A stretch of DNA of 64,000 nucleotides from positions 1 through 64,000 of the forward strand of contig NZ_LR217717.1 in the NCBI RefSeq assembly GCF_900698945.1, written 5' to 3'. This document shows positions 1 through 62,356 of the stretch, piece by piece. Position 1 is the stretch's first letter, and each line of letters starts with the position of its first letter. This stretch comes from Buchnera aphidicola (Cinara laricifoliae) (GTDB taxonomy: Bacteria > Pseudomonadota > Gammaproteobacteria > Enterobacterales > Enterobacteriaceae). The notes beneath the pieces are model-generated. The model searched no databases. It was not told the DNA's origin and saw nothing but the letters and a program-made list of their open reading frames with translations. The position numbers were made by a program, and so were the translations under genes.

Positions 1-39
1 GTATATAAATATATAAGTATAAATATTTAGGAAAAAAAA

Positions 40-4548: not shown

Positions 4549-5655
4549 TTATATTTTTAAGGGCATTATGATATATTTTATTTCTTTTTGTATATTAGAT
4601 TGAATTTGTATACTTGAAATTGGTATATTAAAAATAACATTGATTTTATTAGTTTTTAATACATTAAGAACGTCAAGTAAATAAAAAACATTTATAGAAA
4701 ATGAAATATTTTCATATTTATAATCAATAAAAAAAGAATCACATGATTCTTCATCTTCTTGATTATTTGATGTAATTGTTAACAAATTTTTAGAAAAACT
4801 TAAACATACACCTTTAAAAGTAGTATTACATAAAATTGATGTTTTTAATAATGATTCTTTTAATTTTTCAGCTGATATTAAAATACAATATGTATATTTA
4901 TTTAAAATAACATCAGTATAGTTTGGAAAACTACCATCTATTAATTTAGTGATTAGTAGTATTTCGTTAACTTGAAATGATATATAATGGTAATGAATAA
5001 TAATTTTTATTAATTCTGTTGTATAAGTTAACAATCTATACAATTCTAAGATAGCTTTTTTATTAATAATTATAGAAAAAATAGATATGTTTAAATTTAA
5101 ATAAGTTTTGTACATCGATAATCTATGTCCATCTGTAGTAACTCCGTATAGATAATTATTTTTATATTCTAATAACATTCCGTTTAAAGTATTTCGAATA
5201 TCATTATTAGCGATAGAAAAATATGTTAAAGATATTATTTCTTTTAACATGAATTGTGATATAAAAAATATTTTTTTATCTTCAATGGTTTTAAATATTG
5301 GAAAATTATTACATGAAATTGTGTTTATTTTAAATAAACTACTAAATACCTTAATATATATTTTTTTATTAATTAATCGAAAATGTAATTCTGCATCATT
5401 TTTTACGTTACGAAAGATATTAAATATTTTTTTTCCAGAAACTGTAATACAACCAGCTGTATAAAAAGTATAATATTTTTTATCTATACACGTATTTAAT
5501 TCAATGTCTAATGTAGAGCTAGTCAATTTAAGTATGTTTTTATCAATTTTTATGATTACATTTTCTAATATTGGAAATATTGTATTTTTAGTAATAATTC
5601 TATTGATTTTTTTAAAAGAATTTAAAAAATCATTTTTTTTAATTTTGAATTCCAT
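4549..5655 (-). CDS. dnaN: DNA polymerase III sliding clamp (beta subunit)
   Basis: Ring-shaped clamp that tethers DNA polymerase III to DNA. The protein has 368 residues against 366 in E. coli and begins MEFKIKKNDFLNSFKKI. Recognisable blocks are NTIFPILENVII, RNTLNGMLLE, TTDGHRLSMYK near the middle and a C-terminal IIMPLKI corresponding to the MPMRL end. Its start lies 3 bases beyond the dnaA stop codon, so the two are presumably co-transcribed as in E. coli. Conservation is clearly weaker than in gyrB, but the frame is intact. Confidence 0.95.
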   Translation of the reverse strand: MEFKIKKNDFLNSFKKINRIITKNTIFPILENVIIKIDKNILKLTSSTLDIELNTCIDKKYYTFYTAGCITVSGKKIFNIFRNVKNDAELHFRLINKKIYIKVFSSLFKINTISCNNFPIFKTIEDKKIFFISQFMLKEIISLTYFSIANNDIRNTLNGMLLEYKNNYLYGVTTDGHRLSMYKTYLNLNISIFSIIINKKAILELYRLLTYTTELIKIIIHYHYISFQVNEILLITKLIDGSFPNYTDVILNKYTYCILISAEKLKESLLKTSILCNTTFKGVCLSFSKNLLTITSNNQEDEESCDSFFIDYKYENISFSINVFYLLDVLNVLKTNKINVIFNIPISSIQIQSNIQKEIKYIIMPLKI

Positions 5656-5658
5656 ATT

Positions 5659-6772
5659 TTATGAGTTTAGTTGGTTAAATAAATATAAAAAATCATAATA
5701 GATTTTATTTTTTTTTTTTAGTTGATTGATTTTTTTATATGCATGTAATACAGTAGTATGGTTTTTTTTACCAAAAGCTATACCTATTTCTGAAAAACTA
5801 TAATTAGTTAGTTTTTTAATTAATGTCATAGCAATTTGTCTTGACGTTATAATAGATTTAGATCTTTTTTTTGAAATCATATCTGACATTTTAATATTAA
5901 AATATATAGAAACTTTTTTTTGAATTAATTTTATATCTATATTATTTTTTTTTTTTTTATATTTTTTTTTAATTCTTTTTGAATAAAACGCATTTTTATT
6001 TTTTTTTTAATAAATAATGATGTTATATATATTTTTTTTAAAAAATTCTTTAATTCCCGTATATTAGAATATAATTTTTTCGCAATATATTTAGCTAATT
6101 GGTATGATAAGTCAATTTTGTAGTCATATGCTTTATTTAAAATAATATGTGTTCTAGTAATTAACTCTGGTGGATGAATTGATACAGTCAGTCCTTTTTT
6201 TAAATAAAATCGTAAATTTTTATCAATTCCATTAATATAACTAGGGTAACAATTTGCAGTTAATACAATTTTTTGATTTTTTTCAAATAGTTTTTTAAAT
6301 ATATATGATAATTCTTTTTGTAAATATTGTTTATGAGAAAATAATTGAATATCATCTATTAATAATACATTAATAGAACTATAATAATTTTTTAAATGTT
6401 CAATAGAATTATTTTTTATTGAATGTATCACATTCTCAATAAAATTTTTTGAATGTATATAAATTACTTTTATATTGTAATTATCTATTAAAAATTTATT
6501 GCCTATTGCATGAAGCAAGTGTGTTTTACCTAGACCTGTATTGCTATATAAAAATAATGGATTATAAATATTTTTTAAATTTTTAGTAAATTTATATGAT
6601 GAATAACGAGCTAATTTATTTGATTTACCTTCAATAAAATTATTAAATTGATATTTTTGATTAATACCGGTATTTAATAATAATTTTATTTGTAACTTTT
6701 TTTTTATTTTCTTATATATATTTTTTTTTATTTTTTTTTTTTTTTTAATTTTTTATTTAATATATGTGTCAT
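5659..6772 (-). pseudogene. dnaA: DnaA replication initiator, truncated and frameshifted at poly(A) runs
   Basis: DnaA normally opens oriC and loads DnaB. Three pieces are visible. The AAA+ domain III runs from about 6690 down to 5937, with Walker A GLGKTH, Walker B VLLIDDIQ and sensor-2 RELK. The DNA-binding domain IV lies at 5889-5659 (SKKRSKS, RQIAM, NHTTVLHA). They are in different frames: domain III runs into a stop just after a 14-A run (complement of 5945-5958), and adding one A joins the frames. Upstream, the domain III frame has no ATG, GTG or TTG before the Walker motif. The nearest ATG (6772-6770) is out of frame across a 16-A run and again needs one extra A. Domains I and II, about 100 residues, are absent. 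E. coli arginine-finger positions R281 and R285 align with N and Y. Corrected length would be about 371 residues against 467. It may be rescued by polymerase slippage or be a dying gene. Confidence 0.85.
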
Positions 6773-13576: not shown

Positions 13577-14329
13577 TTATTTATTTCCATATATATTTTT
13601 GCGATAGCTTTCCCATTCAAATGTTAGCCATAAACTATTACCTAAACACATTCGATCAACTACTCTTTCTCCTAATAAATTTTTTAGTTGTTTATGGTTT
13701 AAATTAGATAACATTCCGGTAGATTTTTTTGATGAAGATCGTCTATCTATAATTTGATTGATAATCATTTTTTCGTATCGAGACTCTATTTGCATACCAA
13801 TTTCATCAATTATAAGTAAATCTACTGTACTTAAATTTTGTAATAATTTTTCTTCTGTAATTTTCGTTAAAGATCGGTTAAATGTACTTTTTATAGTAGA
13901 CATTAAATCTGCTACTGTAATTATTAATATGTTATATCCATGTAAAATTAAATAATTTCCAATAGCTGAAGCTAAGTGATTTTTTCCTGTTCCTGGTCGT
14001 CCTGAAAATATAAAACTAGCAATATTATTTTTAAAATTTTCTGCATATTTACGAGCTGCATAAAGGACTTTTCTATGTCCTTCATGATTAATATAATAAT
14101 TATTAAAAGAACAATTGATATACAATTCTTTTATTCCTGATCGACCTAATAACTGTTTTATTTTCATGGCTTTATTTTTACGTATAATAGATTCAGAATA
14201 TTTTTTTCCTTGTTCTTGATTCCATAAAAGTAGTTCTTTGTCGTTATAAAATTTAGGTTGAATATATGTAGGCATTATTTTTTTTAATTTTGCTAAAAAA
14301 TTATTTATTTTATATTTTTTTTTTCTCAT
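13577..14329 (-). CDS. dnaC: DnaC helicase loader
   Basis: AAA+ protein that delivers DnaB helicase to DNA during initiation and restart. The 250 residues match E. coli (245). Walker A is GRPGTGKNHLASAIGN near residue 110, Walker B VDLLIIDEIG near residue 168, and the C-terminal DRRSSSKKSTGMLSN and ERVVDRMCLGNSLWLTFEWESYR are well kept. It is a single minus-strand gene converging on efp. It is much better conserved than DnaA, which normally acts upstream of it. Confidence 0.96.
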   Translation of the reverse strand: MRKKKYKINNFLAKLKKIMPTYIQPKFYNDKELLLWNQEQGKKYSESIIRKNKAMKIKQLLGRSGIKELYINCSFNNYYINHEGHRKVLYAARKYAENFKNNIASFIFSGRPGTGKNHLASAIGNYLILHGYNILIITVADLMSTIKSTFNRSLTKITEEKLLQNLSTVDLLIIDEIGMQIESRYEKMIINQIIDRRSSSKKSTGMLSNLNHKQLKNLLGERVVDRMCLGNSLWLTFEWESYRKNIYGNK

Positions 14330-31256: not shown

Positions 31257-31799
31257 TTAGTATTTTTCTACTTGATTAAAACTGAGCTCAACAGGGGTAG
31301 ATCGTCCAAATATTGATACAGAAACTTTTAATCGATTTTTTTCATAATCAACGGTTTCAACAATTCCGTTAAAATCTGAAAAAGGACCATCTTTAACTCG
31401 AATATTTTCACCAGGCTCAAACATTTTTTTTGGTCGCGGTTTATCACCAATTTTTTTTAATTTTTGTAATATAATATTTATTTCATTAGTACTAATTGGT
31501 GTCGGTTTTTCAGAAGTACCGCCTACAAAACCTAATACTTTTGGTAAACTTTTAATTAGATGCCAACTATCATTATTCATAACCATTTCAATTAAAATAT
31601 ATCCTGGAAAAAATTTGTAATCGCTTTTTTTTCTTTTACCTTTTCGAATTTCAATTACTTCTTCTGAGGGGACTACGACTTGACCGAATATATCTTGCAT
31701 TTTTTTTATTTTTTCATTATTAATTATTGAATGCGCTACTTTATTTTCAAAACCAGAAAAAGCTTGTAAAACATACCATTTTTTTTTATCTACGCACAA
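31257..31799 (-). CDS. nusG: Transcription elongation/antitermination factor NusG
   Basis: Binds RNA polymerase and links it to Rho or to ribosomes. The 180 residues (E. coli 181) contain [11 protein letters not shown] near residue 8, [14 protein letters not shown] near residue 63, [11 protein letters not shown] near residue 93 and the C-terminal KOW domain ([15 protein letters not shown]). It lies 4 bases after secE. Confidence 0.98.
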
Positions 31800-31803
31800 T
31801 TTC

Positions 31804-32190
31804 TTATAACCTCGGTGTCAATATCCAGGACACTATACGAAGTATTAATCCATCAGATATCCATAAAAATATAGATGTTAGTATGATTAATAAAATGACT
31901 ATCCCGGTTGTTTTTAATGTTTCTATATAATTAGGCCATGTGATTTTAGAAAATTCTAGTTTTATGTCTTGTATAAAAGTAATTATTTTTTTTCCGATAT
32001 TTGTATAAATAAATACACTACATAATAGTACAAAAGAAATAATGAAAAATATTATTTTTATTATTTTTGAAAATTTATGAATAAAAAAAATATAGTTAAA
32101 AAATATTGATATAAAGATAACAGTTATACATAACCACTTTATTTTTTCAGTGTGATTCATATATATTCTATATATTTTATGAATATGCAT
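31804..32190 (-). CDS. secE: Preprotein translocase subunit SecE
   Basis: Essential clamp of the SecYEG channel. The ORF codes 128 residues (E. coli 127), with three hydrophobic segments and the conserved cytoplasmic motif [16 protein letters not shown] near residue 83, then [15 protein letters not shown]. The upstream ATG (32190) gives E. coli-like length. A second ATG at 32160 (MNHTEKIKW) is possible, and neither has a good ribosome site. secE-nusG is the usual pair. Confidence 0.93.
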
Positions 32191-32384: not shown

Positions 32385-32411
32385 TTTTTTTTTTTTTTTT
32401 TTTTTTTTTTT
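32385..32411. repeat. 27-base T homopolymer (poly-A on the secE strand)
   Basis: An uninterrupted run of 27 T lies between the tRNA cluster and secE, by far the longest homopolymer in the window. On the transcribed minus strand it is A27, located between the last tRNA and the secE start. It is expected to vary in length between cells and could be a sequencing-length uncertainty. Confidence 0.9.
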
Positions 32412-60348: not shown

Positions 60349-60616
60349 ATATGTCAATGTAAATGATAGTAATGATAAATTATTATTATAATAGATAATT
60401 AATATAATAATATTAATTTTATTAAATAATTATATGCGAATATAATTATAAGTATATAAAAATAATTAAAATATATTAATATGCAATACATATATAAATG
60501 TGTAAATTGATATTATATATTTATATATGTATTATATTTATTAAATTTTTATTAATTTAATTTAATTTTTATGTTTTGTATTTTTAAAATTTATATTGGT
60601 TTAAGGTGCATTGAAA

Positions 60617-61966
60617 ATGTTATTTTTTTATGATATAGAAAAAGATTTAAATATTTTACTGCATAATATGCGGCAGGTAATATTTTATTTAAATAAAAAA
60701 AAATATACTGGTTTTATTAAAATAAAAAAAACATATTGTTTAATCGTATCAAATCGATATGGAGTTATAGACAATATTGAATCATTTAATTATATTAATA
60801 GTACAGTTATTACATACGATAATTATCGTCAATATTCTACATCATCCAATGACGTATCTATTTTAGGAATATGTAATTCTATTGATAAATCAATTTATCT
60901 ATCTAAGTATACAACTAAAGATAAATTTATCGGTTTACCTGATATAAATTTATTATATAATAATAATAAAAAAATAAATTTATTTTTTCCTCATTCTTTT
61001 AGTCTAGAGGAAATTAATAATTTAGTCAATACAGCAGATTCTGCAGCTTTGAATTTTGATGCTAGAATTATTAATACAGATAGTTCTATTTTTGAATATT
61101 TTATTAATATTAAGATTATAGGAAATAGTTTAGGTTGGATAGGAAATCAACTATCTACATATAATTGTTTATCTAGTTGTGTTATAGCCCGTGATAATAA
61201 TTCGATGGAAAAAGATATTAGTTATACTGTTGCAAGAGATTTTAATGATTTAGATGATCCTATATTTATAGGTCAGGATAGCGCAAAAAAAAGTATTGCA
61301 AAATTAAATTCGAAAAAAATACGTACGCAAATTTCTCCTGTTATATTTAGTTCTGATGTTTCTTGTGATTTATTTTTTTGCTTAATGAGTGCAATTAATG
61401 GACATGTTGTATATAATAAATCAACATTTTTATTAAATCATTTAAATAAAAAAATTTTTCCTGATTGGTTAAATATTTTTGAAAATCCATTTTTGGACAA
61501 AGGTTTATCGTCTTCATTATTTGATAATGAAGGTGTGGTAACTACTGCTAGAAAGATTATACATAACGGTATTTTACAAACATGGTTGTTAGATACATAT
61601 TCAGCTAATCGTTTAAATATGTATAACACTGGACATGCTGGAGGAGCATATAACTGGTTAGTATCAGCAGATACTAAATTTTTAACATCGTTTAATCAAA
61701 TTTTATATTCTATGTATCAAGGATTTTTAATTACTGAATTAATAGGTGATGGTTTTAATATAATGACTGGAGAGTATTCATGTGGTGCATGTGGTTTTTG
61801 GATAGAAAAAGGAAAAATAGAATATTCTGTTAATGAAGTTACTATTTCCGGTAATTTGTTGAATATGTATAAAAATATTATTTGTATAGCTGATGATATA
61901 AATATAAAAAATAAAGTTCAATGTTCTTCTATATTGATAGATAAAGTACAAATTTCTGGAATTTAG
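60617..61966 (+). CDS. pmbA: PmbA (TldE), metalloprotease partner subunit
   Basis: With TldD forms a zinc protease; PmbA/TldE lacks the metal site. I choose the ATG (MLFFYDIEKDLN) with AAGGTG 8 bases ahead; a TTG two codons upstream is possible. The 449 residues (E. coli 450) share LSSCVIARDNNSMEKDISYTVAR near residue 190, STFLLNHLNKKIFPDWL, STGHAGG-like NTGHAGGAYNW near residue 340, and ITGEYSCGACGFWIEKG. tldD is not in the window. The role in a symbiont without known microcins is unclear. Confidence 0.95.
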   Translation: MLFFYDIEKDLNILLHNMRQVIFYLNKKKYTGFIKIKKTYCLIVSNRYGVIDNIESFNYINSTVITYDNYRQYSTSSNDVSILGICNSIDKSIYLSKYTTKDKFIGLPDINLLYNNNKKINLFFPHSFSLEEINNLVNTADSAALNFDARIINTDSSIFEYFINIKIIGNSLGWIGNQLSTYNCLSSCVIARDNNSMEKDISYTVARDFNDLDDPIFIGQDSAKKSIAKLNSKKIRTQISPVIFSSDVSCDLFFCLMSAINGHVVYNKSTFLLNHLNKKIFPDWLNIFENPFLDKGLSSSLFDNEGVVTTARKIIHNGILQTWLLDTYSANRLNMYNTGHAGGAYNWLVSADTKFLTSFNQILYSMYQGFLITELIGDGFNIMTGEYSCGACGFWIEKGKIEYSVNEVTISGNLLNMYKNIICIADDINIKNKVQCSSILIDKVQISGI

Positions 61967-61989: not shown

Positions 61990-62356
61990 GAAGTTGATTT
62001 ATAAGCCGGGTTCTGTTTAAAACAGTCATTTATCTAGATTAATAATCACTTATTAATTCAAAGCAGTCTACCCGGAGTAGTTATGCGGGCCACATTCTCC
62101 TTCTTGACCTTGCTCCTGATGGAAGTTTACCATGCCAAGATTGTTACCAATTTTGCGGTGCGCTTTTACCGCACCATTTCACCTTTTCCTATTAAAATAT
62201 TATGATAATACATATTTTTTTTATATAGGTAGTTTATTTTCTGTTGCACTAGTCGTAAGATTACTCTTCCCAGGTGTTACCTGGCACCGTACCCTATGGA
62301 GCCCGGACTTTCCTCTGTCAATAAAATTATATTACAGTGACTGTTCAATCAACTTC
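61990..62356 (-). ncRNA. rnpB: RNase P RNA (M1 RNA, class A)
   Basis: Catalytic RNA that matures tRNA 5' ends with RnpA. On the minus strand the 5' end is GAAGTTGATT. The universal core GAGGAAAGTCCGGGCTCC (near 62305) and the 3' core AGAACCCGGCTTATA (near 62005) pair as P4. The intervening GGTGCCAGGTAACACCTGGG and GGTGCGGTAAAAGCGCACC helices and GGTAAACTTCCA are kept. The middle domain contains AT-only arms. Length about 367 bases against 377 in E. coli. It abuts the rsmI stop. Confidence 0.95.

Follow-up and report, generated by a model that had tools for sequence, protein, structure and literature searches.

An eroded dnaA gene in Buchnera aphidicola (Cinara laricifoliae): two frame offsets at poly-A runs, past selection and a possible plasmid role

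The dnaA gene near the chromosome start of Buchnera aphidicola (Cinara laricifoliae) is truncated and twice out of frame, and the box VII arginines of its product are replaced. The explanation that we favour, with a probability of roughly 0.45, is that it encodes a true DnaA close to the end of its loss, which would have been supplying a working domain III-IV protein up to the very recent past and may do so even now, being read by slippage and perhaps kept for a plasmid. Alignments with relatives show an erosion series together with past selection on the gene, and rescue by slippage is likely.

A truncated dnaA in two reading frames

The window, the whole stretch of 64,000 nucleotides analysed here, is the start of a Buchnera-like chromosome in a genome of 445,591 bases and three contigs. 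Its genes, named from their open reading frames (dnaA and dnaC also by Pfam match), include in order mnmG, gyrB, dnaN, dnaA, rpmH, rnpA, yidC, mnmE, groES-groEL, efp and dnaC. The initial annotation placed the AAA+ and DNA-binding domains of DnaA in two frames that meet at a 14-A run (Table 1), and both the reading frames and the Pfam matches of the two pieces agree with it (Bac_DnaA, E=1.6e-27; Bac_DnaA_C, PF08299, E=5.1e-25); in a whole-genome profile search the match to Bac_DnaA (PF00308) had an E-value of 7.8e-51. The two frames overlap at 5940-6006. The frames also confirm that domain III is without a usual start codon and that the nearest ATG, at 6772, is out of frame at a 16-A run, as it opens an ORF that ends just past this run, one phase off domain III. 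No domain I reading frame was seen by eye in any phase upstream of domain III, in keeping with the earlier claim that this domain is gone, and dnaC, said to be well conserved, is so.

Table 1 Features of the window discussed in the text.
Feature	Position	Strand	Remark
mnmG-upstream (oriC) spacer, window part	1..39		142 bp with the contig end; no DnaA box
dnaN	4549..5655	-	intact; yardstick for dnaA
dnaA, whole locus	5659-6772	-	domains III and IV in different frames
DnaA domain IV frame	5662..6006	-	stop to stop, 115 codons
Helix-turn-helix signature NHTTVLHA	5740-5763	-	in domain IV frame
DnaA domain III (AAA+) frame	5940..6752	-	271 codons, stop-free, no ATG before Walker A
14-A run	5945..5958	-	frame change between domains III and IV; private to the window
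Codon TAT (Y) at E. coli arginine finger R285	6204..6206	-	alignment with E. coli K-12 DnaA
Codon AAT (N) at E. coli box VII R281	6216..6218	-	N also in G001, G002, G003, G004, G011
Walker B LLIDDIQ	6345-6365	-	in domain III frame
Walker A GLGKTH	6519-6536	-	in domain III frame
Short ATG ORF	6728..6772	-	14 codons; end of domain I; phase 1 relative to domain III
16-A run	6731..6746	-	between conserved ATG and domain III; offset common to relatives
dnaC, helicase loader	13577..14329	-	intact; dN/dS 0.08 against dnaA-less sister G015

Within domains III-IV no stops or indels were found outside homopolymers. Three of the seven A/T runs of at least 12 bases in the 64 kb fall inside the 1.1 kb of dnaA, and A-runs of at least 9 bases occur at 6.3 per kb in dnaA, compared with 0.95 per kb on the sense strand of window ORFs of at least 90 codons.

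Residues of the AAA+ and DNA-binding domains

Residues were called by aligning the window DnaA with E. coli K-12 DnaA. The alignment agrees with the earlier placement of N and Y opposite R281 and R285, and it shows no arginine at either place. Tyrosine at the place of R285 is shared by the window and G001, glutamine is present in G002, G004 and G011, and arginine in the other 10 genomes of the genus with dnaA. K178, D235, D236 and R334 are retained in the window protein. Passages of PMC5043019 and PMC7561715 describe recognition positions in DnaA domain IV that touch the bases of the box, those of the former assigning base-specific contacts to residues 399, 423, 432-435 and 438-439. In the window R399, H434, T435, L438 and H439 are kept at these positions, and P423, R432 and D433 are altered to S, K and N, respectively. 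Like E. coli DnaA, the window protein has Walker A and B motifs, a sensor 2 and a domain IV of the helix-turn-helix type; unlike it, it is without domains I-II, R281, R285, a single frame and boxes at oriC.

States of dnaA in related genomes

The window genome (G000) was compared with 15 other genomes of the genus, giving a set of 16, and a bootstrapped tree was constructed from six genes (2,978 columns). The window genome and G015 are sisters (bootstrap 99), joined by G001 (100) and then by G002, G004 and G011 (100), and these form the inner group of six. Group X comprises nine genomes, namely the inner six and G005-G007, as a clade with support of only 62. G003, G009 and G012 are weakly placed (support 41, 54); G008/G014 and G010/G013 are placed apart with a support of 100.

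G008, G013 and G014 have a dnaA that retains a single frame, domain I and both arginines. Both arginines are also kept in G010, where domain I, read by eye, seems shifted between two A-runs, and in G012, where domain I is in a different frame. The gene is full length in G003 and G009, with N or Q at residue 281, and in G005-G007 it lacks domain I and has C at 281 with R285 retained. G002, G004 and G011 encode N at 281, Q at 285 and a sensor 2 altered by R334K, and the G004 gene is additionally broken within domain III at a 21-A run (near L049 6347), where G002 has 16 A and is in frame. Splits between domains I and III at A-rich linkers are found in G012, G124 and G141.

In the sister genome G015 a profile search gave no DnaA_C match, and the collinear dnaA remnants (76-79% identity) in the 837-bp gap between dnaN and rpmH are interrupted by 14 stops over 217 aligned codons and by 8 gaps that change the frame. 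Three further genomes, G044, G066 and G114, were taken as Buchnera-like on their gene order and a leu/repA plasmid; neither DnaA_C, searched genome-wide, nor dnaA, searched in the first 20 kb, gave a match in them. Buchnera is said in passages of PMC4389277 to retain dnaA; contrary to these, the gene is lost in G015 and in three other lineages. A search with a Buchnera DnaA alignment returned 80 loci, none of them titled Buchnera, and these were left out of the comparison. As a baseline for broken genes, 3 of the 47 G015 ORFs with a window match are broken in the window, as are 2 of 47 G001 ORFs, one of which is dnaA; in the reverse direction, of 48 window ORFs, G015 has 2 in broken form and G001 has 5.

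Age of the two frame breaks

A conserved ATG near the end of domain I is found in 7 of the 8 dnaA-bearing genomes of group X, always in phase 1 relative to domain III; that of G001 lies three codons further on, and G011 has no ATG there. In 6 of the 8, a run of 16, 12, 9, 13, 14 or 14 A lies where the short ORF and the domain III frame overlap; in G002 the short ORF ends too soon. The distances from the ATG spot to Walker A are 236, 221, 233, 233, 239, 239 and 239 bases, with a constant remainder modulo 3. Since the phase of the upstream ATG recurs across group X, the offset is old, and an error in a single assembly would not produce it. Over the 1.0 kb compared, one 2-nt gap separates the window from G001, and it lies at 5944-5945, where the 14-A run ends. 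Judged from these alignments, the breaks differ in age, the one at 14 A being private to the window and the 16-A offset old.

It is highly improbable that the gene is in frame and one or both run lengths are errors of sequencing or assembly. Lengths of 14 and 16 A are hard to call and the 14-A break occurs in one assembly only, but the ATG phase repeats in six other assemblies, in five of which the overlap holds 9 to 14 A, and even an in-frame gene would be missing domain I and both box VII arginines. Improbable, too, is a start without slippage, in which domain III-IV would begin at a non-AUG codon (ATT or ATA) and the ATG would be a fossil of domain I. Such a start would suit G002 and G011, which keep an open domain III-IV frame though the ATG route is closed, and the peptide between the ATG and the A-run, which on our reading varies freely. 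It leaves the 14-A break unexplained, however, and the four distances between ATG and Walker A (236, 221, 233, 239) are equal modulo 3, as if both sides were read.

Selection on the remaining domains

dN/dS was calculated by the Nei-Gojobori method with dnaN and gyrB as yardsticks. Between the window and G001 the first half of domain III has a ratio of 0.10, the second, which includes box VII, 0.37, and domain IV 0.16; pooled over domains III and IV the ratio is 0.20 (bootstrap 0.14-0.31), compared with 0.24 for dnaN and 0.14 for gyrB. The pooled value is 0.21 for G005-G006 and 0.15 for G006-G007. In the group with R285Q and R334K the dnaA ratio is 0.34-0.36 compared with 0.12-0.13 for dnaN, and this rise indicates weaker constraint there. 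On the window's own branch dnaA has 12 amino-acid-changing and 20 silent substitutions, no worse than dnaN (21/27), gyrB (25/52), mnmG (46/34) and mnmE (32/21). On the G001 branch constraint seems relaxed in the second half of domain III, where 15 amino-acid changes stand against 5 silent ones. All three domain blocks are stop-free, for which a neutral simulation at 0.22 substitutions per site gave P values of 0.003-0.009 per block. These comparisons show that purifying selection continued on domains III and IV once domain I and the in-frame start had been lost; in the window this selection may have ended very recently.

As the window gene looks selected, rescue by slippage or a very recent death is favoured. 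The latter would make it a very young pseudogene, killed by the 14-A break and the start offset. We consider this rather unlikely, although the arginine finger and domain I are already gone, the sister gene in G015 is shredded and three other Buchnera-like genomes are without dnaA; one private frameshift is enough to kill a gene, and a death so young would not show in dN/dS. Against it, the start offset is common to G005-G007, where the gene is selected (dN/dS of 0.15-0.21 for domains III and IV), a single gap separates the window from G001 over 1.0 kb, and the window branch has no excess of amino-acid changes. An offset between ATG and domain III that is shared while domains III and IV are selected is hard to explain unless it is read through or bypassed. 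The initial annotation had left the gene either on the way out or rescued by slippage, and both halves of this have gained support, the first from the G015 remnant and the three dnaA-less genomes, the second from the selected, shared offset; the dN/dS of 0.20 against G001 and the unexceptional window branch answer the question of selection that it had raised.

DnaA boxes at the chromosomal origin

Two exact DnaA boxes 54-55 bp apart lie upstream of mnmG in G008, G010, G013 and G014, in a spacer of 432-580 bp. This pair is absent from 12 of the 16 genomes of the genus, where the spacer is 136-419 bp; 11 of them are without an exact box and G002 has one (0.00-0.04 exact boxes are expected per spacer). 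The 142-bp spacer of the window genome contains neither exact boxes nor boxes with one mismatch. The boxes seem to have been lost first, because in G003 and G009 the pair is missing and dnaA is full length. In eight other Buchnera-like genera with dnaA, judged as such by gene order, the pair is present in five and not in G141, G058 and G106. None of the dnaA-less G044, G066 and G114 has the pair, and G044 has one box. Across 24 genomes (16 of the genus and the eight genera, with the three dnaA-less genomes left out), dnaA is canonical in 7 of the 9 with the pair compared with 2 of the 15 without it (Fisher 0.003, shared ancestry ignored). The exceptions are G010 and G124, in which the pair accompanies an altered dnaA, and the reverse cases G106 and G058, the latter with canonical arginines and no oriC pair. 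GC skew climbs overall from the mnmG end across the window, with a dip at 20-32 kb.

In E. coli, double mutants in rnhA and dnaA start the chromosome from R-loops, a pathway of replication that requires PriA. Loss of RNase HI could in the same way have allowed R-loops to start chromosome replication here and made DnaA dispensable. The genus fits this idea, with rnhA present only in G008, G013 and G014, all of which have a canonical dnaA, but the idea failed across the family, where 16 of the 19 genomes without DnaA_C keep rnhA (149 genomes). G124 and G141, with a split dnaA, also keep rnhA, and none of the 16 genomes of the genus has a priA match above the cut-off. This explanation has been left only as a rival, and a most improbable one. 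As a separate observation, the absence of rnhA from 13 of the 16 genomes means that R-loop handling in the genus could be unusual. Proteins of the HU/IHF family have no match in G002, G004, G011 and G012, are broken in G001 and number two in the window genome; considered as a correlate, this pattern does not track the states of dnaA.

DnaA boxes on trpEG plasmids

A genus-wide search for paired boxes led to arrays on small plasmids. Sixteen trpE plasmids were compared, eight from the genome set and eight of 44 Buchnera records, all of them from relatives of the window species. At least one exact DnaA box is present on 12 of the 16, where 0.2-0.6 would be expected on each. Within the genome set there are 20 boxes in G007 (11-bp unit TTATACACAGG; 0.5 expected), 25 in G008 (in a 22-bp unit), 5 in G106, 5 in G134 and 3 in G087, and seven of the eight record plasmids carry 1, 1, 2, 2, 2, 5 and 5. 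No exact box was found on the trpE plasmids of Kurisakia, G001, G013 and G105; the Kurisakia pTrp has other repeats. TrpE and TrpG are matched on all eight genome-set plasmids, and RepA only on that of G105, so that boxes without a RepA match characterise the plasmids of G007, G008, G087, G106 and G134 and not those of G013 and G105. In G106, dnaA is full length, the exact oriC pair is absent and four of the plasmid boxes lie 11 bp apart. No trpE was found on the chromosomes of the genus that were examined.

In G001 the plasmid array reads TTATGCACC. Its 11-bp unit is TTATGCACCGG, a box in which C replaces the last A, and in the searched sequence of the 16 genus genomes this unit occurs only on the G001 plasmid. 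Among 27 aligned DnaA rows, G001 is the sole one with a residue other than H at 434, its positions 432-439 reading KHRTTVMY compared with RDHTTVLH in E. coli. The G001 trpEG plasmid (L195) has 35.8% G+C compared with 26.6% for that of G007, in a very AT-rich organism.

These arrays suggest that the trpEG plasmid is the best candidate client for the retained DnaA, and a plasmid role is put forward as a tentative hypothesis, held at distinctly less than even odds. Weighing against it, the G013 plasmid, which carries trpEG and leu genes, has neither a DnaA box nor a RepA match, so that such plasmids can live without exact boxes; the Kurisakia pTrp is boxless, two of the Buchnera records have a single box each, and the co-change in G001 is a single event, on a branch where the second half of domain III seems relaxed. 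Somewhat more doubtful is the full form of the proposal, in which DnaA would no longer start the chromosome, a step taken over by the host or another route, and would survive only as the initiator of the tryptophan plasmid, its recognition helix co-evolving with the boxes (G001 H434R and TTATGCACC) until the gene is lost once unneeded.

Proposed course of the loss and comparison with known systems

Among these relatives the box pair at oriC is absent even where dnaA is of full length (G003, G009). R281 and domain I were lost next, followed in the inner group of six by the arginine finger R285; frame breaks at poly-A runs came last, before decay of the gene in G015. On the explanation favoured here, translation would start at the conserved ATG and the 16-A offset would be bridged by slippage of RNA polymerase (or the ribosome), such that a minority of transcripts would encode the domain III-IV protein, and the second offset, at the 14-A run of the window, would lower the yield further. 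The product might be kept for the small trpEG plasmid and not for the chromosome, the compared plasmids being mostly box-bearing and without RepA. With the arginine finger gone, its activity would consist mainly in binding ATP and the boxes, and it would open the plasmid origin weakly. If helix and box have changed together, G001 domain IV should prefer its own box, TTATGCACC, over TTATACACA.

Poly-A genes that are frameshifted yet expressed were reportedly described in Buchnera and Blochmannia by Tamas et al. in 2008. Passages of PMC3017870 likewise treat poly-A frameshifts with transcriptional rescue in these two symbionts, citing about 30% full-length transcripts. The window dnaA resembles the genes described there in having a homopolymer offset in an otherwise sound and selected gene, some such offsets being shared between species; it differs in having two offsets, one of which separates the start codon from the first retained domain, and in being lost in the sister. 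Blochmannia does not lack dnaA altogether, as the initial annotation had it, since in the accessible text of PMC4389277 the gene is intact in B. turneri, a pseudogene in B. obliquus and absent from four Camponotus symbionts. The parallel loss of the chromosomal initiator, with few or no DnaA boxes by mnmG, is common to both systems as far as that text describes Blochmannia. Unlike Blochmannia, this genus has a graded series, a measure of selection on the remnant, the loss of the oriC pair placed on a tree and a candidate reason for the delay. In its small circles with trpE and trpG the plasmid set resembles the known Buchnera trpEG plasmids (pTrp of APS, S. graminum, U. ambrosiae and others), with boxes in 7 of 8; unlike these, G007 and G008 have long perfect arrays, and in G001 both the box and the recognition helix of DnaA are altered.

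Symbiont dnaA loss, poly-A rescue and readings in which the host takes control of replication after such loss are already known from the parts of PMC4389277, PMC3017870 and PMC8611330, respectively, that deal with them. In the openly licensed literature searched, nothing was found on a truncated or frameshifted Buchnera dnaA or on DnaA boxes of pTrp; older plasmid papers may cover the boxes. How symbionts live without the near-universal DnaA is an old question that is usually argued from end states, the gene being present or absent. The genus supplies intermediate steps, with a likely order of origin boxes, helicase-loading and ATP-sensing residues, frame and gene. A plasmid client would be a testable reason for the lingering of dnaA, and a changed protein and a changed site come with it as a natural pair; for the question of how much protein slippage at poly-A runs can supply, the window gene is a strong natural case.

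Other frame breaks and homopolymers

The longest homopolymer of the window is a 27-base T run at 32385-32411. The apparent yidC ORF ranges from 285 to 549 codons across the 16 genomes, possibly through more frame breaks or decay. At 31585-31927, 60566-61960 and 62083-62320 of the window, homologues of G015 ORFs are split in two frames or contain a stop, and these loci are candidates for recent erosion or slippage.
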